From: Paludibacteraceae bacterium
Lineage (GTDB): Bacteria > Bacteroidota > Bacteroidia > Bacteroidales > Paludibacteraceae
Direction of reading: 5' to 3'
DNA length: 33,078 bases
NCBI GenBank assembly: GCA_017461505.1
Contig: JAFTXV010000004.1
Span: forward strand, 77,490-110,567
A model generated the notes under the pieces. It searched no databases. It was given only the letters and a program-made list of their open reading frames with translations, and had not been told where the DNA came from. Positions 5,982 to 26,352 of this stretch are shown piece by piece. The position numbers and the translations under genes are program-made. The first letter of the stretch is position 1, and the number at the start of each line of letters is the position of its first letter.

Positions 5982-7100
5982 ATGTCTAAGACTCAAAATA
6001 TAGAGCAGTTTAGTTATCCCAATCTCCTTGCACAAGTGAAGGTGCGTGTGAAGTTAGCTCAGCAACGGGCTATATATGCAGCTAATGATGAGTTACTGCG
6101 CATGTATTGGGACATTGGGCATATCTTATGTGAGGAGAAAAAGAAAATCGGTTGGGGTAATGGTGCGCTGAAACGCTTGTCTGAGGATATGCACAACTAC
6201 TATCCCGAAATCAAGGGCTTTTCTGTGCGTAACTGCCAATGTATGATTCAGTTCTATGAAGAATACAACCAAGAACTGACCCTACCCAAATCGGGTACTC
6301 CAATTGCGCAACTGCCAGTTGCGCAATTAGGTAAAGCAAAAACGCAACCGGCGGTTGCGCAATTGCCAGAGTACAATTTCACGCTTCCTGTTATCCATCT
6401 GTCATGGACACACAATATCATTCTTATTCAGCGTGTTAAAGATATTCAGGCACGATATTGGTACATGATTCAGTCCATTGCTAATCATTGGTCAAAAGAC
6501 TTTCTTATTGATGCTATCAAATTAGACTTCTATAAGAAACATGGTGCATTAGCAAACAATTTCGATATAGTTCTACCGCAACCAGAGGCAACCGAAGTCA
6601 AATCCATGCTCAAAGATCCATATGTCTTTGATATGCTTACTTTTACCGAAAGGTTTGACGAAGCAGATATAGAATTGGGACTCGTGAAAGAAATTGAGAA
6701 GTTCTTACTGGAGATGGGTACGGGCTTCGCTTTTATGGGACGACAATACCATTTGGATGTATGTGGTGATGATTATTATATTGACCTATTGATGTACAAT
6801 ACTTTTATGCATAGGTATATGGTCATTGAGTTGAAAAATACAGAATTCATGCCAGAGTATATTGGAAAACTCAACTTCTATTGTTCCGCAGTTGATGATA
6901 TCTTGTGTCGCGAAGGCGATAACCAAACTATTGGTTTGTTGCTTTGTCGTAGCAAAGATAAGATCAAAGCCGAATACGCATTGCGTGATATCAACAAACC
7001 AATAGGTGTTTCTGATTACGAACTCGGCAATGCTTTACCAAAAGACATACGATCTTCGCTACCCTCTATTGAGGATATAGAACGAGATTTGAATGAATAA
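5982..7100 (+). CDS. DUF1016 (YhcG-like) PDDEXK nuclease
   Basis: A 372-residue protein with the two-part DUF1016 layout. Residues 15-100 are the N-terminal helical domain (YWDIGHILCEEKKKIGWGNG, then LSEDMHNYYPEIKGFSVRN). From about residue 195 is the PDDEXK nuclease domain: VLEMGTGFAF-like entry, then Asp268 in YYIDLLMYN and Glu283-Leu-Lys285 in MVIELKN, the D...ExK active site. Family members are DNA-associated nucleases, often near restriction or other defence genes, and their role is not settled. Here it stands alone under its own promoter. Between the domains lies a tract with three VAQL-like units, encoded by short palindromes. Its flanks have lower-GC codon choice than the neighbouring genes, which would fit acquisition by transfer. 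Confidence 0.87.
   Translation: MSKTQNIEQFSYPNLLAQVKVRVKLAQQRAIYAANDELLRMYWDIGHILCEEKKKIGWGNGALKRLSEDMHNYYPEIKGFSVRNCQCMIQFYEEYNQELTLPKSGTPIAQLPVAQLGKAKTQPAVAQLPEYNFTLPVIHLSWTHNIILIQRVKDIQARYWYMIQSIANHWSKDFLIDAIKLDFYKKHGALANNFDIVLPQPEATEVKSMLKDPYVFDMLTFTERFDEADIELGLVKEIEKFLLEMGTGFAFMGRQYHLDVCGDDYYIDLLMYNTFMHRYMVIELKNTEFMPEYIGKLNFYCSAVDDILCREGDNQTIGLLLCRSKDKIKAEYALRDINKPIGVSDYELGNALPKDIRSSLPSIEDIERDLNE
6301..6366. repeat. Palindromic GTTGCGCAATT repeats inside the DUF1016 gene
   Basis: The 11-mer GTTGCGCAATT occurs at 6318-6328 and 6354-6364, and inverted (AATTGCGCAAC) at 6302-6312. The first two form a 12-base perfect inverted repeat around GCC, and CGCAACC/GGTTGCG forms a second one. They encode the VAQL units. 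Confidence 0.8.
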
Positions 7101-7239: not shown

Positions 7240-10200
7240 ATGAAAAAACTTTTCTCTATCGTGCTTCTCATGGCGTGCACTATCACGCTGATGGCACAAA
7301 GTAGCAACAACGAAGACGAGGTTGTTAAGATTGAAAAATGGAATCAACACGCCTATCGCGAGGGCGAGGTGATTGTCAAGTTCAAAGCCGATGGCGCAGT
7401 GCAGATGCGTAAGAACGCCAAAGGCAAGTTCCAGACTGCCAGTATCAGTCAGGTAGATGCTCTCTTTGCGAAACTCGGCGTAGAGGAAGTAGAGGAGCTA
7501 ATGCCTCAAGTGGGTGCTCGCAAAGCTCCACGCCGCATGCGTGCATACAACGGCGCAGAGGTAAAAGACCACGACCTCAGCAAACTCTATCTCATCCGCT
7601 TCAGCGAGCAAGTGGCTGCGCCTATGAGCAACGCGGGCGAGATGCGCACGGTGCACCAAGTGGTGGAGCAGTTGCAAGCCCTTGAGGAAGTGGAGTTTGC
7701 AGAACCAAACTACTTGGTATTTGCTTTAGCCATGGAGTCTGCTGATAGCGCGACTTATGTGGCAGAGCCACTTTATTCTGAGCAATGGGGTCCAGCAGCT
7801 ATCAACTTACCAGCCCTATGGAATATGCCTAAGACCTCTACCAAACGTCCAGTAATCGCGATTCTTGATACAGGTGTAGATGTAGAACACCCTGATCTCA
7901 AAGACAATATCTGGGTAAACGAAAAAGAGAAGAACGGTGTTGCAGGTAAAGACGACGATGGCAACGGTATCGTGGACGATATTTATGGCTATGATTTTGT
8001 CAACCAAACAGGTAACATGGCGGATTTCAACGGTCACGGTACCCACTGTGCAGGTATTGCAGCAGCAGTTGGCAACAACGGCATTGGTATCACAGGTGCC
8101 AACCCTGACGCGCTTATCATGCCTATCACCGTTATGCAATCCGATGGTACCGGTGATGTGGCTACTATCATCAAGGGTATTGACTATGCTGCTGCCAATG
8201 GTGCAGATGTCATCAGCATGAGTTTGGGGGGATATAGCTACTCTATGGCAGAGGAGCAAGCCTTAGGCAAGGCATACGCTACCGCTGTAATAGTAGCTGC
8301 AGCAGGAAATGATGGTCAGCCTATAGAAAAATTGCTGGTATATCCTGGTTGTTTGCAATTCATATTGGGCGTGCAAGCAACTACTCCAGGAGGTGGATTG
8401 GCAGGATTTAGTAATAGGGATAGCGATCCTATTTATACAACCTATAGTACCGAAACAGATCTATACAACTACGAACTTCGCGCTCCTGGAACAGGAATAA
8501 TGAGTACCTATCCACAAGGTCGATACAAAAAACTGCAAGGTACTTCTATGGCAACACCTATGGCAGCAGGTGCCATCTCGCGTCTATTGCAATGCAAGGA
8601 ATACAATAGTTGGGAGTTGCTTTTTGGCGATCTAATTTATACTGCAAACACAGATACTGTAATTGATATTTATGCTGCGTACAAAATCACGGATGCCGAC
8701 CGTAAACCCAATTTGCGACAGGTAACTTATTATCTTACCGATACCCTTGGCGATAATGATAGTCGTGCAGATGCAGGCGACACGATAGCCCTTTATCCAG
8801 TTCTTCGTAACGATTGGGGACAAGCAGAGAATATACGCATGTGGATGGAAGTAGGTTATTACGATGGTACAGGCGATTTCGTACCCGATGACACTACATT
8901 GATAACTTTCTTAACCGATACAGTAGATTTCGGACGTCCATTGAGTAGTTACGCAAAAAATAGGTCAGTTAATCCGATTCGTTTTGTAGTCAATAAGAAA
9001 TGCGTGGATGGACGACATATTAATCTTTGTCTTCGTGCTAAATGCGATAACATGATGCAGAGCTTAACACAAAATAATGTCATTAAAGTAGAGAATGGCG
9101 TAGAGATCGGTGGTATTTTAGAGGACGACCTGACACTCTATCCCGATGTACACTATATCGTAACGCGCGAGTTGTTGATTCCTTCAGGCATTACATTAAT
9201 TATTAAGCCAGGTACAATTATTCGATTTAAAGATAATACAGGATTAACTTGCGAGGGGACTATAATTGCAAATGGAACTCCTGATAGTTTAATAGTATTT
9301 ACAAAAGCCGAATTGGATCAAGGAAAGTTAGCTTCCTATAAGATCACATTTGGTAATTATAGCAAAATTGCATATGCTATGATATGCGATTTTGAATATG
9401 TTCAACCTTCTTATGGAGGAACGTTATCTAATTGTATTATCAAAGATGTAAGGTGGGAGTCTTATAGTTATTCAAATATGAACCAATGCGTTATAACAAA
9501 TTGCCAGCAGGTACACGTAGGAGGTAGCACTCAATTCAATATAAATCAAACGAATATTGTTACAAACACTACATTTCTTTCTGGTGATCCAATATCATTA
9601 CGATACAGATTGAAAAATTGTAATGCATTTTCTAATTTAGTTGGTGGTATTCCTATTAGTGCTACTTATTATATCAACTCTATTTCAGTTTTAAAGCCTT
9701 CCTATCCTTCTTATTTAGGTTCTGCCAGAGAAGACATTCTTCATTCCTACATTGCAGACTTTAATAACCCACTCCTAGAATCTGGAGCTGGATATGGAAA
9801 AGGAGTCGTTCATTTGGACTATGTTGCCAAAGAACCTATCCGAGAAGCCCATGGTATCGTATGGAAAGTGGTGGTCAACGGCTACGACGCACAAGATGAG
9901 TTCGAGATGCTCCCACCGTTAGGTGTGGGCAAACACAAATTTGAAGTGTATTTCAATCGTGCAATGGACACCTCTATTGTACCTCATATCTCTATGGGCG
10001 TTCGCCTGCCATATACCCAAAACATCATTGCAGAAGATGGTAGTTGGTCTGCGGATAGCACTATTTACACCGCATACCTCACTATCAATGGCAAAACCAA
10101 TACAGATGGTCTGAACCGTATCTATGTTTATGGTGCAGAAGATACCGACCACTTCGAGATTCCGGAAGAGTACCACCGCTTCAATGTGCAAGTAGCAGCA

Positions 10201-11352
10201 ACTGGTTCGCTCAGCACTGGACTGATGGCAGAAGCGGGACTTGGCAAAGTAGCCCTCACATGGCAAACCGATGAAGAAGATTTTGAAGACCTGCTCGGAT
10301 ATAACATCTATCGTTGGACTGAAGATACTATCAAGTGGGATAGACACTATGATAGCAGTTGCAAATGTTATATCGAAGCAGGTTGGAAATTTGACACCGT
10401 GCAAATTAGTCAGTCTCTCATTGACTCACAAGACACTGCTTTTGTGGACTTCGATGTAGTGCCAGGTAAGACGTATTACTATGTCATCAAGCAAGTTACC
10501 ACATCCTTGTCTTCTTATTCTATTTCCAATCCAGTGGCAGCCACCCCATTGACTGCTCAAAAAGGCGATGCCAATGGTAGTATGAGTGTGGACGTGGCTG
10601 ACGTAGTAACTGAAGTCGCATACCTCACAGGTAATAATCCACAACCATTTATCTTCGAGGCAGCAGATGTCAATAGCGACAACACCGTCAATATCCTCGA
10701 CATCGTAGGTACAGTCAATATCATCACCAACCCTGCGGCTTCTTCGCTTGGCTTCTCAGACAACAACACCGCTACTTATAGCATCGAGGATGGTATTCTC
10801 TATGTGGAAACTCCAGTCGTACTCGGTGGTGTACAATTCTCCTTTGATGCAGAAGCAGAGATCTCAGCACTGGAGGCACTCAACGGCTTTGAGCAAGTGA
10901 CTTGGAACACTGCAGACCATCTCAACTTCATGGCTTACTCCATGAGCGGCAAGACTCTCGGTGTCGGCAAACACGCACTGCTCTATGTGGGCGATGCAGA
11001 GATAAAGAAAATCATTCTCAGCAATACCCAAGGGCAAAACATACCTGCTATCCAACGCACCACCACCGACCTCTCATCCGTAGAAGCGATGCAAATGCGC
11101 TTACCAAATCCTAACCCATTCACTACGCAAGTGAATATCCCATATGTGGTAGGACAATCGGGCAAGCATGAGGTACGATTGGTATTTACCAACGTAGCAG
11201 GTTTGATGGTAGATAGTTATTCTGCTACTCAGACTTTCGGCGAATACACCTACACTTGGCGCCCAGGTGCGTTGCTAGAAGGCATGTACTTCGTGACCCT
11301 CTACGTGGACGGCAAGAAAATGCAAAGTAGCAAACTCGTTAAGGTGAACTAA
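7240..11352 (+). CDS. Secreted subtilisin-like protease with dockerin-like module and T9SS sorting domain
   Basis: A 1370-residue multidomain exported protease. Residues 1-20 are a signal peptide (cleavage at LMA-Q). Residues about 38-160 resemble the fervidolysin-type prodomain (YREGEVIVKFKADG). The S8 catalytic domain spans about 185-455 with Asp210 (ILDTGVD), His266 (HGTHCAG), oxyanion Asn357 (AAAGNDG) and Ser436 (GTSMATPMAAG); all catalytic residues are intact, and DDDGNGIVDD looks like a calcium loop. A beta-helix-like region follows (GTIIRFKDNTGL near 650), an FN3-like domain (about 990-1100), a dockerin-like double calcium repeat at 1109-1165 (GDANGSMSVDVADVV and ADVNSDNTVNILDIV), a beta domain, and a type A T9SS C-terminal domain from about 1287 (LPNPNPFTTQV to KLVKVN). 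It should be exported by the T9SS and released or anchored at the surface. The next gene starts 17 bases later and is surely co-transcribed. Confidence 0.9.
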   Translation: MKKLFSIVLLMACTITLMAQSSNNEDEVVKIEKWNQHAYREGEVIVKFKADGAVQMRKNAKGKFQTASISQVDALFAKLGVEEVEELMPQVGARKAPRRMRAYNGAEVKDHDLSKLYLIRFSEQVAAPMSNAGEMRTVHQVVEQLQALEEVEFAEPNYLVFALAMESADSATYVAEPLYSEQWGPAAINLPALWNMPKTSTKRPVIAILDTGVDVEHPDLKDNIWVNEKEKNGVAGKDDDGNGIVDDIYGYDFVNQTGNMADFNGHGTHCAGIAAAVGNNGIGITGANPDALIMPITVMQSDGTGDVATIIKGIDYAAANGADVISMSLGGYSYSMAEEQALGKAYATAVIVAAAGNDGQPIEKLLVYPGCLQFILGVQATTPGGGLAGFSNRDSDPIYTTYSTETDLYNYELRAPGTGIMSTYPQGRYKKLQGTSMATPMAAGAISRLLQCKEYNSWELLFGDLIYTANTDTVIDIYAAYKITDADRKPNLRQVTYYLTDTLGDNDSRADAGDTIALYPVLRNDWGQAENIRMWMEVGYYDGTGDFVPDDTTLITFLTDTVDFGRPLSSYAKNRSVNPIRFVVNKKCVDGRHINLCLRAKCDNMMQSLTQNNVIKVENGVEIGGILEDDLTLYPDVHYIVTRELLIPSGITLIIKPGTIIRFKDNTGLTCEGTIIANGTPDSLIVFTKAELDQGKLASYKITFGNYSKIAYAMICDFEYVQPSYGGTLSNCIIKDVRWESYSYSNMNQCVITNCQQVHVGGSTQFNINQTNIVTNTTFLSGDPISLRYRLKNCNAFSNLVGGIPISATYYINSISVLKPSYPSYLGSAREDILHSYIADFNNPLLESGAGYGKGVVHLDYVAKEPIREAHGIVWKVVVNGYDAQDEFEMLPPLGVGKHKFEVYFNRAMDTSIVPHISMGVRLPYTQNIIAEDGSWSADSTIYTAYLTINGKTNTDGLNRIYVYGAEDTDHFEIPEEYHRFNVQVAATGSLSTGLMAEAGLGKVALTWQTDEEDFEDLLGYNIYRWTEDTIKWDRHYDSSCKCYIEAGWKFDTVQISQSLIDSQDTAFVDFDVVPGKTYYYVIKQVTTSLSSYSISNPVAATPLTAQKGDANGSMSVDVADVVTEVAYLTGNNPQPFIFEAADVNSDNTVNILDIVGTVNIITNPAASSLGFSDNNTATYSIEDGILYVETPVVLGGVQFSFDAEAEISALEALNGFEQVTWNTADHLNFMAYSMSGKTLGVGKHALLYVGDAEIKKIILSNTQGQNIPAIQRTTTDLSSVEAMQMRLPNPNPFTTQVNIPYVVGQSGKHEVRLVFTNVAGLMVDSYSATQTFGEYTYTWRPGALLEGMYFVTLYVDGKKMQSSKLVKVN

Positions 11353-11369
11353 CCACAAAAGGTTTAGTT

Positions 11370-14300
11370 ATGAAACAATTTTTGATACTATGCTTTGCTT
11401 GGTGCATAAGTACCTATGCCATGGCAAGCAATACCATCACTCTCTCTTCCGTTAGCGGGACACCGCAGACGGAAGTGGAGGTAGTCGTGTCGCTCAACAA
11501 TACCGATGCCATCACAGCATTGGAGATGAATATCCCGCTGGGCGAGCACTTGTCGTATGTCAATAGTTCTGCCACCCTCGCTACCACACGCAGCAATGGA
11601 CATCAACTATCCGCTGCACAAGTAGGACAGGAGTTGCGCATTTATATCTACAGCCTCAGTCTCAATGCCCTACAAGGTAACACGGGCGAACTGCTGACTT
11701 TCCGTTTGCTCTTAGGTAACGAGCCTGCCAATTACACGCTATCGCCTACCGTTGTTCTCAGTAATGCACAAGGCACATCCATCGACGGCAGCGTACAAGC
11801 AGGCAATGTAACTATCCAAGCACCCAAATTGCAGATAGTCAATCCGCAAATCGATTACGGACATATCCCTATTCGTGACACCTACACCAAGAATCTGCAA
11901 CTCAAGAATGTCGGAAACTTACCTCTCACGATAGAGAATATCACCACCACCGACCCGCTGTTTGTACCCAAGCAAACAACGCTCACCATCGCTGCAGGAC
12001 AAACCACATCCGTTGCTATTGACTACACCCCCACAGAGCGCGGCGCAGTCAATACAGAGGCAATCGTCAAGTCCAACGCCATCAATGGCGAACAAGTAGC
12101 GACTATCATGGCAGACCCCTTCTCCGTGAACGAACTGCATGTAGGTACAGCCAGCGGCATTGCCGATAGCATTGTGACCATCTCCCTCACAATGAACAAC
12201 ATGGAGCCTATCGTGGCGATGCAATGTGCTTTCAAACTACCCAAGCAGTTGGAGTATGTAGCAAACAGTTTGGCAGTCAACGCTACGCGCAACAACGGAC
12301 ATCAAGCCCTTTCTACCCTCCGTGGCGATACATTGTTTTTGGCTATCTTCTCTATGACCAATCAGCCATTGCACGCCAACGACGGCGAGGTAGCTACCTT
12401 CCAACTCCGCCTCAACGGCTCATCGGGTACCTATTACCTCAAACCCATTGATGTCGTACTCAGCAATATCACGGAGGAGAATATGGTATCAGCTACTTCG
12501 CAAGGCAAAGTTACCATCAAAGCCCCTGCTATCAGCAGCAACGCTTCGCTCGCTTTTGGTAGTCATGCTATCACCGAAGAGGCATATGCCACTCATTCCG
12601 TGCGAAATAATGGTAGTGCACCGTTAGTATTGGAACGCGCTACATTCTTGGCAGAGGGTTATCGCGTGGTGGAAGAATTACCTATCACCATAGCAAATGG
12701 CAAGACGACTACGATCACCGTGGCATATCAACCCACCGAGGAAGGCGACTTCTCCACCACAATGAACCTCTACACCAATGACCCTAACAACCGACTAAAG
12801 ACAGTCGCTCTCTCTGGACATGTGTTCGAACCCAATGCTTTATCATTGACAGGACAAAGCAACCAAGATGGCACCTACACATTGTCGGTGGCAATGGACA
12901 ACTACACCGATATTGTGGCAGTCCAATACGACCTGCATTGGCGTAGCGATATGACTACTTCGCAAGCGGCATTCACGCCATCGGAGCGAATGAGTAGTCA
13001 TAGTTATTCCGTCACTCCATTGGGCAATAATGGCTACCGCATAATCCTCTTTTCGTTCTCTAATGCACTAATCAACGGACATGATGGGCTGCTAAACCAA
13101 CTGGTATTCACTCCACAAGGAGATGTGAACTATTGTGGCAGTACTATTTCTATTGATAATATTGTGCTAAGTAATGCTGCTGGAAGCGACAAGACATCCG
13201 TTCCAACAACTTCTCTGCGTACAGCGCATACCAAATGGGAAAATGTCGCTGCAACCGCCTGCGACGAATATGTATGGAATGGTACAACTTATTCCGAAAC
13301 AGGTATTTATATCGACACTATCCCTTCACAAGCAGGATGTGATAGTATTGTAACATTGCATTTGACCATCAACCGTAGCAGCACCACCGAGGAGACTGAG
13401 GTAGTATGCGATAGTTACACTTGGACTGATGGAAAGACCTACACCGAGTCGGGTACTTACTACCAATATCTACAAACAGTACATGGTTGTGATAGTACAG
13501 TAGTATTACACCTTACTATTAATAATAGTGTAGTGGTACCATACGAGGTAACCGCTTGCGACAGTTATACGTGGAGCAATGGTGTGACCTATACGCAATC
13601 AGGCGTTTACTATGACTCACTCAAAACTATACACGGTTGCGATAGTGTAGAGATTCTGACATTGACCATTAACTATAGCGATACTGCCACCTTCACTGCT
13701 ACTGCTTGTGATAGTTACACTTGGCATGATAAGATATACACCACATCTGGAGTATATGAGTACCTAACTCAAACCATCAATGGCTGCGATAGTCTGGAGG
13801 TACTAACCCTGACCATCAACCGTAGCAGCACCACCGAGGAGACTGAGGTAGTATGCGACAGCTACACATGGACCGACGGCAAAACTTACACCGAGTCCGG
13901 AACGTATTACCAGTACCTACAAACCATCCACGGCTGCGATAGTACTGTGGTGCTCAACTTGACTGTCAACCGCAGTATCGAGGTTTCATACGAGGTAACC
14001 GCTTGCGACAGTTATACATGGAGCAATGGCAAGACCTATACACAATCAGGCGTGTACTACGACTCACTCAAAACTATACAAGGTTGCGATAGCGTAGAGA
14101 TCCTGACATTGACCATTAACTATAGCGATACGGCATACTTTAGTGCAACGGCTTGCGATAGCTATGTATGGCATGATGAGACATACACCACATCTGGTGT
14201 ATATGAGTACCTAACCCAAACCATCAATGGCTGCGATAGTTTAGAGGTACTGACCCTCACTATCAACAACAGCATCACTACGGAGCAGACAGAAGTAGCC

Positions 14301-15896
14301 TGCGATAGTTACACTTGGACTGATGGCAAGACCTACACCGAGTCGGGTACTTACTACCAATATCGACAAACTGTACTTGGTTGTGATAGTACAGTAGTAT
14401 TACACCTTACTATTAATAATAGTGTAGTAGTACCATACGAGGTAACTACTTGCGACAGTTATACATGGAGCAATGGCAAGACCTATACACAATCAGGCGT
14501 GTACTACGACTCACTCAAAACTATACAAGGTTGCGATAGTGTAGAGATTCTGACATTGACCATCAACTATAGCGATACTGCTACCTTCACCGCTACTGCT
14601 TGTGATAGTTATGTATGGCATGATAAGACATACACCACATCTGGTGTATATGAGTACCTAACTAAAACCGTCAATGGCTGCGATAGTCTGGAGGTACTGA
14701 CCCTCACTATCAACAACAGCATCACTACGGAGCAGACAGAAGTTTCTTGCGATAGTTACACTTGGACTGATGGAAAGACCTACACCGAGTCGGGTACTTA
14801 CTACCAATACTTGCAAACTGTACATGGTTGTGATAGTATAGTGGTATTACACCTTACTATTAATAATAGTGTAGTAGTACCATACGAGGTGACAACTTGC
14901 GACAGTTATACCTGGAGCAATGGTGTGACCTATACGCAATCGGGCGTATACTACGACTCACTCAAAACCATATACGGTTGCGATAGTGTAGAGATCTTGA
15001 CGTTGACCATCAACTATAGCGATACGGCCTACTTTGGTGCCACATCGTGCGATAGTTACGTATGGCATGATGAGACATATACCGCCTCAGGAACATACGA
15101 GTACTTGACACAAACTATCCGTGGTTGTGACAGTTTGGAGGTTTTGACCCTAACCATCAACCGTAGTGTAACAAGCGAGGAGACATATGTATCTTGTGAT
15201 TCATATACTTGGAATGGTGAGACTTACAGCGAGAGTGGGGAATATGTTTACATTACAGTCGCTGCCAACGGCTGCGATAGTATTGTTACTTTGCATTTGA
15301 CCATTCTGCCTGATGCTACCACAGAAAGCGAAACGCTTGTGCTTTGTCCTTCAGAACTGCCATATGAGTGGTATGAGCAAGTACTTACTGAGGCTGGTAC
15401 CTATACTGCAACCGAACAATACGCTGGTATGGAGTGCGATAGCGTCATCCACGAACTGACAGTGAATGTGTATGTACAGACATTGCCAGCCCAGGTGACA
15501 CTACCTATCGTTCGCACGGGTGAAGCGATTGATGTGACTACTCCAACCGCCGAGATTCAAGCACATATGGCTGCTGAGACATGGTATGCTCCTAATGCAT
15601 TGGTAGCTTGGTATGTCATGAATAATAGCGACTGGACAGCATTAACAGATGAACCTGTAGCAACTGGCATCACAGAGGTGATACTCAAATATGCTGTAGA
15701 AACGGACTGTGGCAATATAGAATCCGACAAGATGGTTATTGCAGTAGAGACGACGGATGTTGAGAACACGCAAAGCCAATCGCCAAGCTCCAATTGCCAA
15801 AAGATACTCTACGAAGACCATATCTATATCCTCCGCGAAGGCAAAGTATATAGTGTCATGGGACATGAGATGTGTAATGTCACCCTGCGTGATTAA
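11370..15896 (+). CDS. Giant exported protein: three cohesin-like domains plus about 15 CDSY modules
   Basis: A 1508-residue protein with a signal peptide (residues 1-19, cleavage near AMA-S). Three cohesin-like beta domains lie at about 21-150, 253-385 and 488-620; each opens with V-SGT/VxVxVxxNN-DAIxALE and ends GELLTFRL...VVLSNAQGT. Between them sit two Ig-like domains of the ASPM/HYDIN kind (DYGHIPIRDT..LKNVGNLPL; LAFGSHAITEE..VRNNGSAPL). From residue 628 come 14 clear modules of 49-51 residues with the pattern CDSYTW-x-GxTYTxSGxY-x-GCDSxxxLxLTIN plus one divergent one; each has two cysteines that could pair. The tail has no full T9SS domain, but ends with KILYEDHIYILREGKVY and VMGHE, a short C-terminal motif I associate with exported Bacteroidales proteins. 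Inferred role: extracellular scaffold or adhesin, possibly docking the upstream protease. Confidence 0.82.
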   Translation: MKQFLILCFAWCISTYAMASNTITLSSVSGTPQTEVEVVVSLNNTDAITALEMNIPLGEHLSYVNSSATLATTRSNGHQLSAAQVGQELRIYIYSLSLNALQGNTGELLTFRLLLGNEPANYTLSPTVVLSNAQGTSIDGSVQAGNVTIQAPKLQIVNPQIDYGHIPIRDTYTKNLQLKNVGNLPLTIENITTTDPLFVPKQTTLTIAAGQTTSVAIDYTPTERGAVNTEAIVKSNAINGEQVATIMADPFSVNELHVGTASGIADSIVTISLTMNNMEPIVAMQCAFKLPKQLEYVANSLAVNATRNNGHQALSTLRGDTLFLAIFSMTNQPLHANDGEVATFQLRLNGSSGTYYLKPIDVVLSNITEENMVSATSQGKVTIKAPAISSNASLAFGSHAITEEAYATHSVRNNGSAPLVLERATFLAEGYRVVEELPITIANGKTTTITVAYQPTEEGDFSTTMNLYTNDPNNRLKTVALSGHVFEPNALSLTGQSNQDGTYTLSVAMDNYTDIVAVQYDLHWRSDMTTSQAAFTPSERMSSHSYSVTPLGNNGYRIILFSFSNALINGHDGLLNQLVFTPQGDVNYCGSTISIDNIVLSNAAGSDKTSVPTTSLRTAHTKWENVAATACDEYVWNGTTYSETGIYIDTIPSQAGCDSIVTLHLTINRSSTTEETEVVCDSYTWTDGKTYTESGTYYQYLQTVHGCDSTVVLHLTINNSVVVPYEVTACDSYTWSNGVTYTQSGVYYDSLKTIHGCDSVEILTLTINYSDTATFTATACDSYTWHDKIYTTSGVYEYLTQTINGCDSLEVLTLTINRSSTTEETEVVCDSYTWTDGKTYTESGTYYQYLQTIHGCDSTVVLNLTVNRSIEVSYEVTACDSYTWSNGKTYTQSGVYYDSLKTIQGCDSVEILTLTINYSDTAYFSATACDSYVWHDETYTTSGVYEYLTQTINGCDSLEVLTLTINNSITTEQTEVACDSYTWTDGKTYTESGTYYQYRQTVLGCDSTVVLHLTINNSVVVPYEVTTCDSYTWSNGKTYTQSGVYYDSLKTIQGCDSVEILTLTINYSDTATFTATACDSYVWHDKTYTTSGVYEYLTKTVNGCDSLEVLTLTINNSITTEQTEVSCDSYTWTDGKTYTESGTYYQYLQTVHGCDSIVVLHLTINNSVVVPYEVTTCDSYTWSNGVTYTQSGVYYDSLKTIYGCDSVEILTLTINYSDTAYFGATSCDSYVWHDETYTASGTYEYLTQTIRGCDSLEVLTLTINRSVTSEETYVSCDSYTWNGETYSESGEYVYITVAANGCDSIVTLHLTILPDATTESETLVLCPSELPYEWYEQVLTEAGTYTATEQYAGMECDSVIHELTVNVYVQTLPAQVTLPIVRTGEAIDVTTPTAEIQAHMAAETWYAPNALVAWYVMNNSDWTALTDEPVATGITEVILKYAVETDCGNIESDKMVIAVETTDVENTQSQSPSSNCQKILYEDHIYILREGKVYSVMGHEMCNVTLRD
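13407..15194 (+). repeat. 447-base higher-order tandem repeat, four copies
   Basis: Cysteine codons that begin equivalent modules fall at 13407, 13854, 14301, 14748 and 15195, exactly 447 bases apart. Each 447-base unit encodes three different modules in fixed order (A: WTDGKTYTESGTYYQY; B: WSNGKTYTQSGVYYDS; C: WHDETYTTSGVYEY) of 49, 49 and 51 residues. Single flanking modules precede and follow. Confidence 0.95.
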
Positions 15897-18741: not shown

Positions 18742-20037
18742 TTATAGCGCAGCGGATAACTCCACTCGTATCAATATCGGATCATGGTCTGCATAGCGGA
18801 ACATCGTATCATCCAATCCGCGCTTAAAACCTCTGCTATAGAAATAATCTGCATTCAAGTGATACACAGCCACTTGCTTCACCTGCTTTGCCATACTCTC
18901 CGAGGCAAATACGCGATCCAAATACCCCGCCTCACTGTGATATACATACGAATACCCTGTACTATCGTCACGCATCACCATATCCGCATACCCTGCACGC
19001 ACCAATGTCTGAATAGGCTCTTCTTGCGTGTAAGAGTTATAATCTCCCACTAGCAGTATGTCCGAATCGCCAAACACCTGTTCCTGCTCGATCTTATCCA
19101 ACATCACTAGCAGACTATCCACATTCGCCATACGCTTTTCATTCGACTCCGAACCTGTGCCACGCTTTGAGCGCAAGTGATTGATGTTCAACACAAACTT
19201 CTCTCCACTTGTCAGCTGCTCAAAGCCGCAAGCCATCAGTCGATAGCGATAATGACTCGTAGTATCTTGGTATGCATATTGCATTTCTCCATAAGGTTTC
19301 ACCTTGTCCATGCGATAGATATAGCCACAAGATATCATGTCGCTATTGCTCCAACCGTGCGACACATACGCGTACAGATTCTTCTTCGCCATCTTGTTCA
19401 TGGCATCTACCAGCATCTGCGCCGCACTATCGCCCTTCTGTATCTCACATAGGGCATAGATATCCGCATTTATCTGCTTGAATGCCTTGCATATCTTCAA
19501 TGTCTGTAGAGTTTGCTGCTCCTTGGTGGTCTTGCGTTGGGCATAGCCGCCTAGGTCATAGAAGTAGTTCTGAATATTCGCAGCACACACGAGCAATCCG
19601 CCTTTCGCCATCTTGGGTTTGGGCTCGGGTTTGTTATTGGTAAACTTGGGTGTAGCACCTGTCACTAGTTTGCCTGGTGCGACTACACGCGCTTGCAAGT
19701 TTTTCACTACCGCACCCGTACGTACTTCGTAGTTACGGATATTGCAAGACAAACTAATCATTTTCTCCCTATTCGACTTCTTGATGGCCCAATAGGCAGT
19801 ACTATCGCCATCCGCCAAGCCGACTGCCTTTTCTTCGGGCACATATAGCCGCTCCGCAGCCAATATCAATGAGTCGTAGTAGTTGCCACATACATACAGC
19901 GGCGTGGTGATCTGCACCATCTTGCCAATATACTTGTCCCATCCGTCAACAAATGAAGAAGGCCACTCGACCTTCTCCACCGCTAATATACTGCTTGCCC
20001 ACGCGCAAACTATCAACAATAGACCAATCTTGCGCAT
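18742..20037 (-). CDS. Exported endonuclease/exonuclease/phosphatase family protein (ExeM-like)
   Basis: A 431-residue protein with a signal peptide (residues 1-19). Residues about 25-130 look like a small beta domain of the OB-fold kind that precedes the catalytic domain in extracellular nucleases. The EEP domain starts near 145 (LLVCAANIQNYF) and shows the metal site Glu at ALCEIQ (about 196), the NHLRSKRG motif, GDYNSYTQEEP (about 331) and the terminal YADHDPILI (about 416). All key EEP residues are present, so an active Mg-dependent nuclease or phosphodiesterase outside the inner membrane is expected; DNA is the likeliest substrate by similarity to ExeM/Xds-type nucleases, which is inference. 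It is the last gene of a four-gene operon, 4 bases after the CotH gene. Confidence 0.85.
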   Translation of the reverse strand: MRKIGLLLIVCAWASSILAVEKVEWPSSFVDGWDKYIGKMVQITTPLYVCGNYYDSLILAAERLYVPEEKAVGLADGDSTAYWAIKKSNREKMISLSCNIRNYEVRTGAVVKNLQARVVAPGKLVTGATPKFTNNKPEPKPKMAKGGLLVCAANIQNYFYDLGGYAQRKTTKEQQTLQTLKICKAFKQINADIYALCEIQKGDSAAQMLVDAMNKMAKKNLYAYVSHGWSNSDMISCGYIYRMDKVKPYGEMQYAYQDTTSHYRYRLMACGFEQLTSGEKFVLNINHLRSKRGTGSESNEKRMANVDSLLVMLDKIEQEQVFGDSDILLVGDYNSYTQEEPIQTLVRAGYADMVMRDDSTGYSYVYHSEAGYLDRVFASESMAKQVKQVAVYHLNADYFYSRGFKRGLDDTMFRYADHDPILIRVELSAAL

Positions 20038-20041
20038 AATT

Positions 20042-21418
20042 TTACAGCATCACTTTCTTGCTCTTACCTCCTTGCACATGGATATACACCTGTCCCTTCA
20101 CAGGCTTCTCCACGCGCATACCTTGCAAGTTATAATAAACGGCGTCAGTACTCAAACCCGTTTCCACCGTTTCTACACTAGTCGCTTTACCTTCACCCCA
20201 TTGCATCACCAGCCAATTCTCGGTTTGCTGCAGACGTTCTTTGATACGTTTCAAGCGATTAGCCATATCCTTATTGCCATATCCTTTATCTCTCCAACGC
20301 TCCGCATCATTTTTTGCGGCTGCCGTAATCAGGTTAGCAAACTCCTCTGCATAAGTGTATGCCGAGTCATACTTATAATAGTGCAACCATTGCCAAATCT
20401 CTTTTACACGATCCATAAACTTAGGGAACTTGCATATCTCAGGGATCCAGTGGTTATGCCACACATCGCCCTCGTAGAGATATTGATACTTATCACGGTT
20501 AAATGCACTACCAAAATCCCATACTGGTCCAAACATCCACTTCTGCCCCTCGCCCATATCGCGATACAGATAGCAACTGCCGTGGAATGACTCGTAGTTA
20601 TCCGTAATCTCTTGTACGATATAGAATTTTGCTAATGCATCCATATCTAGATATTGCCATAGTGCGTCACTATTCTTGTCACCATATACCAAACGGTCAA
20701 TACGCTCCATCTCTGCTCTCAAAAATTGCTCTTGCGCACTCGAAAGCAACTCAGGACTCTTATAGGTGAACCACATTGTATGGCGATTACCCTCTTGAAT
20801 CTCTATATTATAAGGTGCCTCATTGTAGTTATCAATCTCCACCAACCAGCCGCCGGTTATCTTCTCTGGATCGGTCTCATTATCTTCTTGCTCCTCGATA
20901 TTCACGCGATCTTTATCCACGCGAATATGCTCCGTCAAGAAATACAAACCTTTATAATCGCCATTCAACACTAATTCCACAGGTTTTGCTTTCGGGGTCC
21001 ATGCCATACCTATCTGCTCACTGAAATAAAAGCCTATAGTATTACGCATAAAACCTTTATTGTCATCCGCGTGTGCCATCAATGCAAAGTGCTTGTTCTT
21101 GGCCAAACCCATCAATGGCTGTTTATCTGCCAATTTCAAGCGATAAGGTTTCTTATCAAAGTCTCTCCATGTATAATTACCACGACCCTTGATCTCCAAT
21201 GAACAAGGAACTTCCTTACTACCAATAGCCTCTACGTCAGATGCACCCATAGGATCCAAATAGTAGGTTCCATTCAGATAATCTTCTTTACTAGTAATTT
21301 CTTTTCTGCCTTCTGTCTCAATATGCAAGACAGGCAACGTTCCCGAATAAGAAATAGCATGGCTATAGCCCCATGCTATTATCATTATTGCTAATCCTAC
21401 AATACGATTAGTTCTCAT
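20042..21418 (-). CDS. CotH-family protein kinase-like exported protein
   Basis: A 458-residue protein with a signal peptide (residues 1-21, cleavage near SHA). The CotH fold is shown by LEIKGRGNYTWRDFDKKPYR (about 74-93), the lysine region of the nucleotide site, by NGDYKGLYFLTEHI, by IVQEITDNYESFHGS (about 266-280) and by FGPVWDFGSAFNRD (about 296-309), the acidic metal-binding segment. Bacillus CotH phosphorylates spore coat proteins; exported relatives are widespread in Bacteroidota with unknown targets. The C-terminus carries a short YYNLQGMRVEKP...GQVYI motif typical of Bacteroidales surface proteins, in place of a full T9SS domain. Its ATG overlaps the stop of the DUF4290-like gene by 4 bases. 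Confidence 0.87.
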   Translation of the reverse strand: MRTNRIVGLAIMIIAWGYSHAISYSGTLPVLHIETEGRKEITSKEDYLNGTYYLDPMGASDVEAIGSKEVPCSLEIKGRGNYTWRDFDKKPYRLKLADKQPLMGLAKNKHFALMAHADDNKGFMRNTIGFYFSEQIGMAWTPKAKPVELVLNGDYKGLYFLTEHIRVDKDRVNIEEQEDNETDPEKITGGWLVEIDNYNEAPYNIEIQEGNRHTMWFTYKSPELLSSAQEQFLRAEMERIDRLVYGDKNSDALWQYLDMDALAKFYIVQEITDNYESFHGSCYLYRDMGEGQKWMFGPVWDFGSAFNRDKYQYLYEGDVWHNHWIPEICKFPKFMDRVKEIWQWLHYYKYDSAYTYAEEFANLITAAAKNDAERWRDKGYGNKDMANRLKRIKERLQQTENWLVMQWGEGKATSVETVETGLSTDAVYYNLQGMRVEKPVKGQVYIHVQGGKSKKVML

Positions 21419-21741
21419 TTTCGTTTCTTCTTTTGATTGTTAGTATTGATATAAGGCACACGTTGTGCCAATTTCTGCATCGCCTCTTCAAAAGCAGGAA
21501 AGTCGCAGGATAACGCGCCATTCGACAATGCCACGATATCCTCTTTTAATCGTACTACACCCGACTCTTGTTCCTTGTTCCATTGAGCATTCTTCTGACG
21601 CATACATTGTGCTATATACACCACCATCGCTTGTTGCTTCTCCACATCTTGCTCCTTGGTGGCCAACTGCACCATATCTTGGATGATGCGACCATAGTTG
21701 CGCATCCGTACCACGCTCGTCTTCCTTAATTCCTGTTCCAT
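21415..21741 (-). CDS. DUF4290-like small cytosolic protein
   Basis: A 108-residue protein without signal peptide or membrane segment. The N-terminal MRNYGRIIQDMVQLATKEQD and QQAMVVYIAQCMRQKN resemble the Bacteroidota DUF4290 family (NYGRNIQKMV...), but it is shorter than the members I know and ends in a basic tail (NNQKKKRK). Function unknown. It is odd to find a cytosolic protein coupled by ATGA overlap to an exported kinase. The start is preceded by an AGAGATTAAAG-type repeat, purine-rich in this direction, which may serve for ribosome binding. Confidence 0.6.
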   Translation of the reverse strand: MEQELRKTSVVRMRNYGRIIQDMVQLATKEQDVEKQQAMVVYIAQCMRQKNAQWNKEQESGVVRLKEDIVALSNGALSCDFPAFEEAMQKLAQRVPYINTNNQKKKRK

Positions 21742-21742
21742 A

Positions 21743-21795
21743 TATCTCTATCTTTAATCTCTATCTTTAATCTCTAACCTTTAATCTCTAACCTA
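21743..21795. repeat. TCTTTAATCTCTA tandem repeat between the EEP and DUF4290-like genes
   Basis: Four imperfect copies of ATCTTTAATCTCTA / ACCTTTAATCTCTA fill the whole 51-base intergenic gap. Confidence 0.85.
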
Positions 21796-22878
21796 CTTTT
21801 CCTTAATCAAATAAATCATTGTAGGATAGTGATCAGCATAGCCATCTTGCCAAACATTGCTCTTCACGGTACGCAGTGGAGTACCCTTATCTTTACCCTC
21901 TTGCACGGTCAAGAATGGTTTGTTGAATATCTGTGACTTCCAATATACCCATTTACCATCTTCCAACTTGGCATTCATCAATGGTTCTGAGATAAATATT
22001 TGGTCAAAGAGGTTCCAACTACCTTGGTATGCCAAGCTGCCTACGCCTCGATCCAACTTCTGCCACATCGTATTGAAGAAGCCCTGCTCCTCCACCTCTT
22101 TACGAGTCTTCTTGGCTCCCATCACCACTGCACAACTATGGTTATATGGGTCGTCATTCAAGTCACCCATCACAATAATCTTCGCACGCGGCTCTTTCAT
22201 GTAGATGCTATCGCATACTCGTTTGCACAGCATCGCTGCCGTATCACGGGTCGCACGACTACTCTCCTCACCGCCATAGCGACTAGGCCAGTGGTTCACG
22301 CTAATATGAACTTTATCCATCACTATCTTTCGATTATCATCCAGCATATAGCCCGAAACCCACAATTGCAAACGACTTCTCACCACACCACCATCAGCAT
22401 AGTGTGCTTTCAACTCATAACCCTTTGGTTGCCCCACTGGCTTGAACATATCTGGATTGTACAAGAAACCTACATCCACACCACGGCGGTCAGGACCTTC
22501 TAGCAATATGGGCACATAGTTGCGATTATGTTTCTCCTTCAATTCGCGACACAAGTCGTACAGACAACCGATATTCTCTACCTCTGACACGCCTACACAG
22601 GCTGCACCACGAGGATCCTCGTCTGTACCTAATTGAGCAATAGCATATGCCATATTATGAATCTTATGCTCATACTTCAGCGAGGTCCATTTCATACCAC
22701 CATCTGGCAAATACTCATAGTCGTTCTTGCCCTCATCATGAATCGTATCAAACAGGTTCTCTAGGTTGTAGAACGCAACACAACGAACCATCAGATCCCT
22801 ATTATCTGCTAACAGAGTATTGAGGTACAATACCGCCATCAATAGCAGTAAAATCAGTCGAAAATTAGTTTGTTTCAT
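21793..22878 (-). CDS. Exported endonuclease/exonuclease/phosphatase family protein
   Basis: A 361-residue protein with an N-terminal signal peptide (hydrophobic residues 7-24). It is a single EEP domain with no added module: FYNLENLFDTIHD (about 36-48), GVSEVEN (Glu, about 97), SVNHWPSRYGG (about 193), VMGDLNDDP (about 237) and the terminal GYADHYPTMI (about 344). The Asn, Glu, Asp and His of the active site are all present. Substrate unknown; nucleic acid or another phosphodiester is inferred. First gene of the minus-strand operon with its own promoter. It is different from the larger EEP protein at the operon's end and not a recent duplicate. Confidence 0.86.
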   Translation of the reverse strand: MKQTNFRLILLLLMAVLYLNTLLADNRDLMVRCVAFYNLENLFDTIHDEGKNDYEYLPDGGMKWTSLKYEHKIHNMAYAIAQLGTDEDPRGAACVGVSEVENIGCLYDLCRELKEKHNRNYVPILLEGPDRRGVDVGFLYNPDMFKPVGQPKGYELKAHYADGGVVRSRLQLWVSGYMLDDNRKIVMDKVHISVNHWPSRYGGEESSRATRDTAAMLCKRVCDSIYMKEPRAKIIVMGDLNDDPYNHSCAVVMGAKKTRKEVEEQGFFNTMWQKLDRGVGSLAYQGSWNLFDQIFISEPLMNAKLEDGKWVYWKSQIFNKPFLTVQEGKDKGTPLRTVKSNVWQDGYADHYPTMIYLIKEK

Positions 22879-24554: not shown

Positions 24555-24624
24555 CGAACTTTTTGTGCAAAGCACAACACAAGGTATTAAATTAAGGTTT
24601 GTTTTTATCAAAATATTAGGTACA

Positions 24625-26352
24625 ATGATTAATTTTAACATTGAGGTAGCTTCAGAGAAGCACATACCTTATGTCGCAGAGATTCTTCATACCATTGAAG
24701 AAGCAGCTAAGGACCGCGGTACGGGTATCGCCAAACGTAATCCAGAGTATGTGGCGCAGAAGATGCGTGAGGGCAAAGCAGTTATCGCTATGGATGGCGA
24801 TAAGTTTGCTGGTTTTAGTTATGTAGAGTGCTGGGATCACGGACACTTCGTGGCTAACTCTGGACTAATCGTAAAGCCAGAATATCGTCATATGGGACTC
24901 GCTAAGCAAATCAAGACACGCATTGTAGCACTCTCACAAGAGTTGTTTCCTAATGCCAAGATATTCTCCCTCACCACAGGTGCTGCCGTGATGAAGATGA
25001 ATACCGAATTGGGGTTCAAGCCAGTGACCTTCCAAGATTTGACATCTGATCCTAAATTCTGGAAGGGTTGTGAGAGTTGTGTGAACTACGATGTGCTCTG
25101 CCGCAATAATTTCGAGCGCTGCCTATGTACTGGTCTATTGTTTGAGCCTCCTCACAAAAAACGTGTGGTAGTAGCTTACAGCGGCGGTTTGGACACCTCT
25201 TATACCGTAATGTACTTGGCTAAAGAATTAGGTTACGAGGTACATGCCGTATGTGCGAATACCGGTGGTTTCAGTGCGGAGCAATTGCGCCAAAACGAGG
25301 AGAATGCATACAAACTCGGCGCTGTGCGTTATGAGACTCTCGATGTACAACAAGAATACTACGACAAGAGCATCCGCTATATGGTCTATGGCAATGTGCT
25401 CCGCAATGGTACTTATCCAATTTCTGTATCCTCTGAGCGAATTTTCCAAGCATTAGCAATCGCTCGTTATGCCCGCGAAGTGGAGGCAGACGCTATTGCA
25501 CACGGCTCGACTGGTGCCGGCAACGACCAAGTGCGCTTTGACATGACCTTCCTCGTAGCCGCTCCTGGCGTGGAGATCATTACCTTGACTCGTGACAAAG
25601 CCCTCACCCGTCAAGAGGAGATCGATTATCTCAATGAGCACGGCTTTGCAGCAGACTTCGAGAAACTCAAATACTCCTACAACGTAGGGCTCTGGGGAAC
25701 CAGTATCTGCGGTGGCGAGATATTGGATAGCAAACAAGGATTGCCAGAAACCGCATACCTTAAACAAGTCACCAAGGACGGCGAAGAGGATATCGTGCTC
25801 GAGTTTAAGAACGGCGAGTTAGTGGGTGTGAACGGACAAACCTACGAGGATGGCGTAAAAGCTATTCAAGCGGTTGAAGAAATTGCAGCGCCATACGGCA
25901 TTGGTCGTGATATGCACGTGGGTGATACCATCATCGGTATCAAAGGCCGTGTAGGCTTTGAGGCTGCCGCACCTATGCTCATCATCTCAGCACACAAGTT
26001 CCTTGAGAAATTCACTCTCTCCAAGTGGCAACAATACTGGAAAGACCAAGTGGCTAACTGGTACGGTATGTTCCTCCACGAGAGTCAATACATGGAGCCT
26101 GTGATGCGTGACATCGAGGCGATGCTAGAGTCTAGCCAACGCAATGTGAACGGCAAAGTCACCATGCACCTACGTCCATACATGTTCGAGACCGTAGGCG
26201 TGGATAGCAAAGACGACCTCGTAAAAACCAAACTCGGCGAGTACGGCGAGATGCAAAAGGGTTGGACATCCGAAGAAGCCAAAGGCTTTATCAAAGTTCT
26301 GTCAACCCCTCTCCGTGTATATTACGCTAACCACGACGACGAAACATTATGA
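24625..26352 (+). CDS. argG: Fusion of a GNAT N-acyltransferase and argininosuccinate synthase
   Basis: One uninterrupted 575-residue frame with two enzymes. Residues 1-about 140 are a GNAT acyltransferase with the acyl-CoA loop RHMGLAKQIKTR (88 onward), probably the first step, acylation of glutamate. A cysteine-rich linker follows: Cys149, 152, 159, 166 and 168 (CESC...C...CLC), which could bind a metal. Argininosuccinate synthase covers about 179-575: the ATP loop SGGLDTS (186-192), GTYPISVSSER, HGSTGAGNDQVRFD, CGGEILDSKQGLPE and HESQYMEPVMRD. It joins citrulline and aspartate with ATP. In Bacteroides these are, as I recall, two neighbouring genes. Start chosen at MINFNIEVAS, 70 bases after the promoter; the frame from 24565 adds unrelated residues. 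It overlaps argC by ATGA. Confidence 0.92.
   Translation: MINFNIEVASEKHIPYVAEILHTIEEAAKDRGTGIAKRNPEYVAQKMREGKAVIAMDGDKFAGFSYVECWDHGHFVANSGLIVKPEYRHMGLAKQIKTRIVALSQELFPNAKIFSLTTGAAVMKMNTELGFKPVTFQDLTSDPKFWKGCESCVNYDVLCRNNFERCLCTGLLFEPPHKKRVVVAYSGGLDTSYTVMYLAKELGYEVHAVCANTGGFSAEQLRQNEENAYKLGAVRYETLDVQQEYYDKSIRYMVYGNVLRNGTYPISVSSERIFQALAIARYAREVEADAIAHGSTGAGNDQVRFDMTFLVAAPGVEIITLTRDKALTRQEEIDYLNEHGFAADFEKLKYSYNVGLWGTSICGGEILDSKQGLPETAYLKQVTKDGEEDIVLEFKNGELVGVNGQTYEDGVKAIQAVEEIAAPYGIGRDMHVGDTIIGIKGRVGFEAAAPMLIISAHKFLEKFTLSKWQQYWKDQVANWYGMFLHESQYMEPVMRDIEAMLESSQRNVNGKVTMHLRPYMFETVGVDSKDDLVKTKLGEYGEMQKGWTSEEAKGFIKVLSTPLRVYYANHDDETL

Follow-up and report, generated by a model that had tools for sequence, protein, structure and literature searches.

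A Conserved Gene Pair of a Dockerin-Bearing Subtilase and a Three-Cohesin Protein in Bacteroidales, a Probable Protease–Scaffold Unit

Introduction

Cohesin–dockerin machines built around peptidases have already been proposed, and the gene pair described here is a variant of that kind. The planctosome of Nemodlikiaceae (Planctomycetes) is a proposed machine for polypeptide degradation onto which M12B and M14 peptidases are docked (PMC6461901), and Ca. Stygibacter (Cloacimonadota) carries dockerins on S8/S53 and C25 peptidases together with a cohesin scaffold that has an attachment CTD (PMC8542988); both are genome-based proposals. Clostridial and ruminococcal cellulosomes share the dockerin and cohesin folds and count peptidases and serpins among their dockerin proteins (PMC12484212, PMC7480376), and in one rumen consortium the catalytic modules found most often together with dockerins were peptidases (PMC7480376). 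For Bacteroidetes, cohesin or dockerin domains in genome bins or single cells have been read as cellulosome parts (PMC6071333, PMC10266427), including both modules in bins from the camel rumen (PMC6071333); the available account of another rumen study describes its Bacteroidetes genome, like others, as having no cohesins or dockerins (PMC5831590).

Our pair lies in a window of 33,078 nucleotides (the whole stretch of DNA analyzed) from a Paludibacteraceae bacterium (genome G000) and joins an S8 protease to its own three-cohesin neighbor as a two-gene unit in a T9SS host. The planctosome, as its cited description has it, differs in phylum and in being built from an anchor and an adaptor protein that have one cohesin each, with a lamin tail domain as the tether (PMC6461901). 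Ca. Stygibacter is described with one 3,755-aa scaffoldin containing CBM2/CBM3 and with dockerins also on GH18 and GH57 proteins (PMC8542988), whereas the present pair is protease-only and 36 scanned proteins of a related genome (G063) gave no glycoside hydrolase match. Cellulosomes, in the accounts cited, involve many enzymes, are carbohydrate-directed, and occur mainly in Firmicutes (PMC12484212, PMC7480376), whereas here a single strong dockerin is found in the genome of a Gram-negative T9SS host. Among titles and abstract openings of the open-licence PMC literature, we found no published description of an S8-dockerin/tri-cohesin pair in Bacteroidales.

We consider it probable that the two genes form a dedicated protease–scaffold pair in which the dockerin of the protease (gene A) docks on the cohesins of the second protein (gene B). 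This reading draws on what the domains are and how they are predicted to fold, on a gene order and calcium loops that are both conserved, and on a T9SS gene; from these we infer binding, stoichiometry, surface location, and a protein substrate.

Results

Gene A Encodes a Predicted T9SS-Exported Subtilase

Motifs containing D210, H266, and S436 are present in gene A (Table 1); we take these residues to be the catalytic triad. The protease tail matches TIGR04183 at 23.8 bits (cut-off 23; 30.6 in a six-frame search) and PF18962 at 25.1, under the cut-off of 27 for that family, and the genome of the window encodes SprA (2690 bits). A type A sorting domain alongside a T9SS gene in the same genome is the combination that marks T9SS cargo, and T9SS export of the protease is thus a supported prediction. 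The initial annotation had proposed possible T9SS export for the two-protein assembly as a whole, which is supported here for the protease: an NCBIfam scan of gene B gave no match to a type A sorting domain, and the protein instead ends in a short tail common in the genome. Judging from its N-terminus and tail, the gene B protein is probably secreted as well, and the C-termini of several of its relatives resemble type A sorting tails by eye.

Table 1. Features of the gene pair in window coordinates
Feature	Position	Strand	Details
Gene A, S8 protease with dockerin	7240..11352	+	1370 aa
Gene A subtilase catalytic domain	7843..8619	+	residues 202-460; PF00082 1.3e-48
Gene A dockerin	10561..10728	+	residues 1108-1163; two calcium-loop/helix repeats
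Gene A shortened cohesin-like beta domain	10762..11085	+	residues 1175-1282, after dockerin
Gene A T9SS type A sorting domain	11110..11343	+	residues 1291-1368
Intergenic gap, gene A/gene B	11353..11369	+	17 bases
Gene B, tri-cohesin scaffold-like protein	11370..15896	+	1508 aa
Gene B cohesin 1	11427..11819	+	residues 20-150
Gene B HYDIN/DUF1573-type Ig domain 1	11820..12113	+	PF07610, PF22544
Gene B cohesin 2	12126..12524	+	residues 253-385
Gene B HYDIN/choice-of-anchor-D-type domain 2	12525..12827	+	NF012200, PF15780
Gene B cohesin 3	12828..13229	+	residues 487-620
Gene B CDSY/CDEY repeats, variable stalk	13260..15359	+	14 copies ~49-50 aa apart; end estimated from spacing
Gene B short C-terminal tail motif	15789..15875	+	profile A6, 59.1 bits (score includes this tail, itself a member of A6)

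The short tail of about 25 aa is widespread, with profile matches at E <= 1 numbering 33 in G000, 41 in G014, and 57 in G102; all 20 copies fetched from G000 (L146-L165) end at a stop, and neither Pfam nor NCBIfam reports a family on the tail of the window protein. In three related genomes (G001, G034, G035) the protease has no type A tail, and both proteins of the pair end in the short one. Because it replaces the missing type A tail there, the short tail may be a sorting tail.

Elsewhere in the window lie a PorP/SprF gene (1323-2294), an open reading frame (24565-26352) with matches to argininosuccinate synthase and to a GNAT acetyltransferase domain (22.0 bits, over its cut-off of 20.7), and, on the minus strand at 18742-22878, a CotH-kinase gene flanked by two endonuclease/exonuclease/phosphatase genes. 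We discarded a reading of regulatory sites: promoter-like sites fell within the range of shuffled sequence and terminator-like sites were fewer than in shuffles; no terminator-like site was listed in the gap between the two genes.

The Dockerin of Gene A Is Followed by a Cohesin-Like Domain

The double calcium-loop segment of dockerin type that the initial annotation had seen in the subtilase is borne out by both profile and fold. PF00404 reaches 26.1 bits, over its cut-off, in the six-frame search (19.6 by hmmscan, under the cut-off of 22.9), and the predicted structure matches 6kge_D in Foldseek (TMt 0.85, rmsd 1.2). Two calcium-loop/helix repeats with conserved ligand positions and a predicted dockerin fold are features that the segment shares with type I dockerins, and the calcium-loop positions are conserved in the alignment columns of gene A homologues. 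Loop 1 of the window protein has Ser at 1114, where the usual residue is presumably Asp. Searched against PDB sequences, the dockerin profile gave weak dockerin matches (best E 0.0037). Over 37/46 taxa, the dockerin is the slowest-evolving of eight compared regions (mean distance 0.40), followed by the catalytic domain (0.45), with the beta domain at 0.96 and the cohesins at 0.87-1.63.

The beta domain behind the dockerin, present in all 43 aligned proteases, is homologous by hhalign to cohesin 3 of gene B and keeps a Q at the strand-3 position in 42/43 together with a strand-6 Y/F-S-M pattern. The best Foldseek match of a model spanning dockerin and beta domain is 2xdh, with 2jh2 and 2w1n also among the structures listed. 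We take these three to be noncellulosomal cohesin–dockerin modules of Archaeoglobus fulgidus and Clostridium perfringens, which share the folds outside cellulosomes and differ in cargo and host; to our knowledge, no S8 protease with a tri-cohesin partner occurs among systems of that type.

A dockerin and a cohesin-like domain in one chain make intramolecular docking a serious rival to the pair reading. The domain beside the dockerin could be its real partner, forming a structural or self-associating module while the cohesins of the neighboring protein serve otherwise, and a dockerin next to a cohesin-like domain within one ORF recurs at other loci of the order (e.g., L175, L186, L188, L189, L192, L194, and L195). 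We regard this as unlikely. An AF2 model of the two domains from 43 sequences (pLDDT 77.7, pTM 0.53), in which the linker (model residues 70-78) and both ends fall below pLDDT 50, gives no sign of confident, fixed packing, a reading of low confidence given a pTM that does not decide the matter; many dockerin proteins of G063 stop at the dockerin, with neither a beta domain nor a sorting tail; and docking within the chain would leave unexplained why a three-cohesin gene accompanies the protease at 45/45 loci.

Gene B Carries Three Cohesins Spaced by HYDIN-Type Domains

The next gene, 17 bases on, had been annotated with three cohesin-like domains, and all three are recovered, with two HYDIN-type domains in between: domains 1 and 2 by predicted fold and domain 3 by hhalign (99.4% against cohesin 1, 99.3% against cohesin 2). 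Structure prediction, which the initial annotation had recommended for these N-terminal domains, gives the first two a cohesin beta-sandwich; the cohesin matches listed bear mainly on model residues 1-366, with cohesin 3 outside them. In the Foldseek search of the 609-residue gene B model, HYDIN-type axoneme proteins come out on top, and cohesins lead only in the VIA realignment. The whole-scaffold profile likewise returned eight matches among PDB sequences, HYDIN-like and unrelated chains only, and a profile restricted to the cohesins gave weak matches to cellulosomal cohesins (best E 0.0044). PF00963 is found on domain 2 in the genome search (25.8, cut-off 24.1); hmmscan of the whole protein lists no PF00963 match, nor does the many-genome PF00963 search for G000.

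One strand-3 position is Q or E in 43/43, 42/43, and 43/43 sequences for cohesins 1 to 3, respectively; in an alignment with a cellulosomal cohesin it falls on an Asp that presumably contacts the dockerin. No catalytic family exceeds its cut-off in gene B in either Pfam or NCBIfam, and several cohesins on a noncatalytic, probably secreted protein are what a scaffoldin would have. The repeats after cohesin 3 are a local detail. Gene B had been described as a CDSY-repeat scaffold, but CD[SE]Y occurs in only 3/46 second proteins (the window, L101, and L104), with one CDQY-type copy in the protein of L103 (its genome copy is L087) and with seven of the locus proteins truncated at a contig end, and we rejected the repeats as a defining feature; they are lineage-specific.

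The Pair Is Conserved and the Surrounding Region Is Not

A scan of genome contigs with a seven-sequence scaffold alignment gave 45 loci, which, the query being the second protein, sample one family. Nearly all are titled as Bacteroidales or families of that order (L131 is titled Clostridium sp.), and 24/45 titles name a ruminant host, the others naming no readable host. At all 45 loci a gene A homologue, whole or cut by a contig end, lies directly upstream on the same strand, with second proteins as low as 34% identity. The catalytic domain is seen at 41/45 (partly in L109 and L140), and at L115, L124, L132, and L143 the contig starts inside the protease gene. The upstream ORF has a dockerin by profile at 42/45; for the remaining loci, the protease alignment spans the dockerin region in L136 and L145, and L115 is cut before it. 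Two loci depart in layout: the protease match of L136 stops ~740 bases ahead of the scaffold match, and the scaffold of L145 is in two ORFs. Over 42 loci the intergenic gap has a median of 54 bases, on gene starts estimated from the first start codon, with 21 at <=30 and a maximum of 378. The alignments A3 and A4 each comprise the window and 42/45 loci, A7 comprises 19/46 taxa, and A5 comprises 22 sequences.

Conservation does not extend to the neighbors. Fifteen other window ORFs were compared with the 45 loci and only one recurs (5982-7100, in 2/45), although by ORF calls more than 1 kb of sequence is available before the protease at 31 loci and after the scaffold at 33. It is therefore the pair that is conserved, not the region. 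Distance correlation was less informative and was set aside as a sign of coevolution since it is not cohesin-specific: over 37/46 taxa, partial values with the dockerin are highest for HYDIN domain 2 (0.59), followed by cohesin 2 (0.38), cohesin 3 (0.34), HYDIN domain 1 (0.23), the catalytic domain (0.20), the beta domain (0.19), and cohesin 1 (0.17).

Seen from the dockerin side, 30/393 genomes of the order gave matches, and the best dockerin locus has a cohesin in the neighboring downstream ORF within 1.5 kb in 14/30 genomes (window included; 15 with one weak match). In G083 and G257 the protease-dockerin is present and no cohesin was found in the longer stretches fetched; in G494 and G172 the contig ends after the dockerin locus. 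From the cohesin side, 18/33 loci in 101 genomes, a set built from all 50 listed cohesin matches with the window's own locus added from a separate cohesin search, have a same-strand dockerin within 5 kb, some in the same ORF. At the other 15/33 there is no same-strand dockerin within that distance, as would be expected if the modules were commonplace decorations of Bacteroidales surface proteins that do not bind one another. Set against linkage at 45/45 loci, neighbors that are otherwise not kept, and strong conservation of the dockerin, we find such a decorative role very hard to credit.

Genus Genomes with the Pair Carry One Strong Dockerin and One Tri-Cohesin Protein

In the genome of the window (G000; 1.74 Mb, 82% complete), a single dockerin exceeds the cut-off and a single protein has cohesins, and these are the pair. 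In 121 genomes of the genus, taken from a larger group, the N-terminal part of the second protein was matched in 29, over the query length in 7, and the protease C-terminus in 12, strongly in 7; the seven genomes are the same. In 7/7, profiles made here find one strong dockerin and one tri-cohesin protein, both belonging to the pair. Weaker signals are few: second dockerin matches of 15.1 bits in G014 and 14.6 in G001, a short fourth cohesin match of 16 bits in G038, and, below the Pfam threshold, short dockerin matches at two places in G001 and at one in G035. SprA is present in 6/7 and was not found in G102, and each of the seven has 10-19 sorting-tail matches (E <= 0.01, sub-threshold matches included).

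These counts qualify the link between the two proteins drawn in the initial annotation. The link itself is upheld by adjacency at 45/45 loci, by the few neighbors shared among 15 ORFs, and by occurrence in the same 7/121 genomes; its descriptions of a CDSY-repeat scaffold and of other dockerin proteins as further ligands are not. The only additional dockerin match in G000 is sub-threshold (14 bits), and the custom profile finds one dockerin in this 82% complete genome. A scaffoldin holding several different dockerin enzymes is thus not what we see, and we do not file gene B as a multi-ligand scaffoldin because the genome has one strong dockerin. Nor do we file the pair as a cellulosome, since there is no glycoside hydrolase cargo: where a cellulosome has dockerin glycoside hydrolases acting on the plant cell wall, the sole strong dockerin cargo found in G000 is the S8 protease.

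One protease gene tied to one partner gene, with a single strong dockerin in 7/7 genomes, would also suit a gene B product that regulates the protease as an inhibitor, chaperone, or processing partner and is no multicopy scaffold. We think this improbable, as three Ig-spaced cohesins and dockerin-bearing relatives look like scaffoldins and G063 has proteins with eight and five cohesins. Another five adjacent ORF pairs of the genus (G019, G054, G103, G149, and G159; L092-L096) have an upstream ORF similar to the dockerin end of the protease, which in most of them stays under the cut-off of Pfam for dockerins, and a cohesin-like ORF downstream; their cargo consists of LRR, CBM26, or InlB-type repeats, not proteases.

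Relatives Include Dockerin-Bearing Scaffolds and Larger Putative Assemblies

The profile search finds a dockerin in at least 13/45 second proteins as well, C-terminal in 12 and internal in one (L111); 7/45 scaffolds are cut by a contig end, so this is a lower bound. L138 (6.4 bits) and L140 (6.7 bits) match weakly. Pfam confirms the dockerin in 3/3 scaffolds scanned (L106, L110, and L137), and L137, with three PF00963 stretches (65.6 bits) and PF00404 (43.1 bits), has a full scaffoldin layout. One possibility is that docking is reciprocal: scaffold dockerins would bind the cohesin-like domain found in the 43 aligned proteases, protease dockerins would bind scaffold cohesins, and higher-order assemblies would result. 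The same profile finds no dockerin in the scaffold of the window, so that this arrangement would be clade-specific, and we give it little credence.

Elaborations of the two-gene unit occur within the order. G457 and G335 (L201, L203) have a three-gene form in which a 280-aa single-cohesin gene lies between the protease-dockerin gene and the tri-cohesin gene (~970-1060 aa). In G063 (L204, G063:C25:205000-224000; L206-L232), adjacent open frames encode eight and five cohesins, and among 39 dockerin matches we classified 36 dockerin-type proteins, excluding one further match within a protein already counted, a fragment of 63 aa, and a frame of 378 aa. Pfam dockerin is found by hmmscan in 34/36, and three are truncated where the fetched sequence stops. 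Twelve of the 36 are peptidases (C25 seven, S8 two, C10 two, M14 one), not counting an alpha/beta hydrolase that also scores for Peptidase_S9 (L217), and one is of the PAD_porph family; no glycoside hydrolase was matched among them at E <= 1e-3 or <= 1e-5, depending on the batch. Nine or more dockerin matches occur in G063, G168, G195, G299, G370, and G390. None of these six shows dockerin–cohesin linkage at its best locus, and G063 has linked cases elsewhere.

Discussion

The most economical reading is that the pair constitutes a minimal cellulosome-like unit for protein. Gene A would supply a Sec- and T9SS-exported subtilase and gene B a secreted protein in whose N-terminal part three cohesins alternate with HYDIN-type Ig domains. 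The calcium-folded dockerin of the protease would bind the neighbor's cohesins, so that up to three protease molecules per scaffold could be held at the cell surface, most likely for protein digestion in the gut. Further points against pairing, in addition to the cohesin-like domain within gene A, are that a protease with its own predicted T9SS tail would reach the surface scaffold-free and that three cohesins for one kind of ligand are unusual.

Whether Bacteroidales have a whole family of T9SS-routed peptidase assemblies based on cohesin–dockerin docking is a broader claim, to which we give an even chance. Its simplest form would be the two-gene unit, one per genome, and the largest seen would be that of G063, with 8- and 5-cohesin proteins that have sorting-tail-like ends and ~36 dockerin proteins, among them peptidases of families C25 (the gingipain family), S8, C10, and M14; none of the 36 scanned gave a glycoside hydrolase match.

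Should binding be borne out, proteases of gut Bacteroidales would be arranged by the lock-and-key of cellulosomes, and the pair would give the orphan cohesin and dockerin modules of Bacteroidetes a concrete, testable role. It would also provide a minimal scaffold made by nature in which to ask why one enzyme is given three sockets, a docking pair that may be new and orthogonal, and a candidate player in protein breakdown in the rumen.
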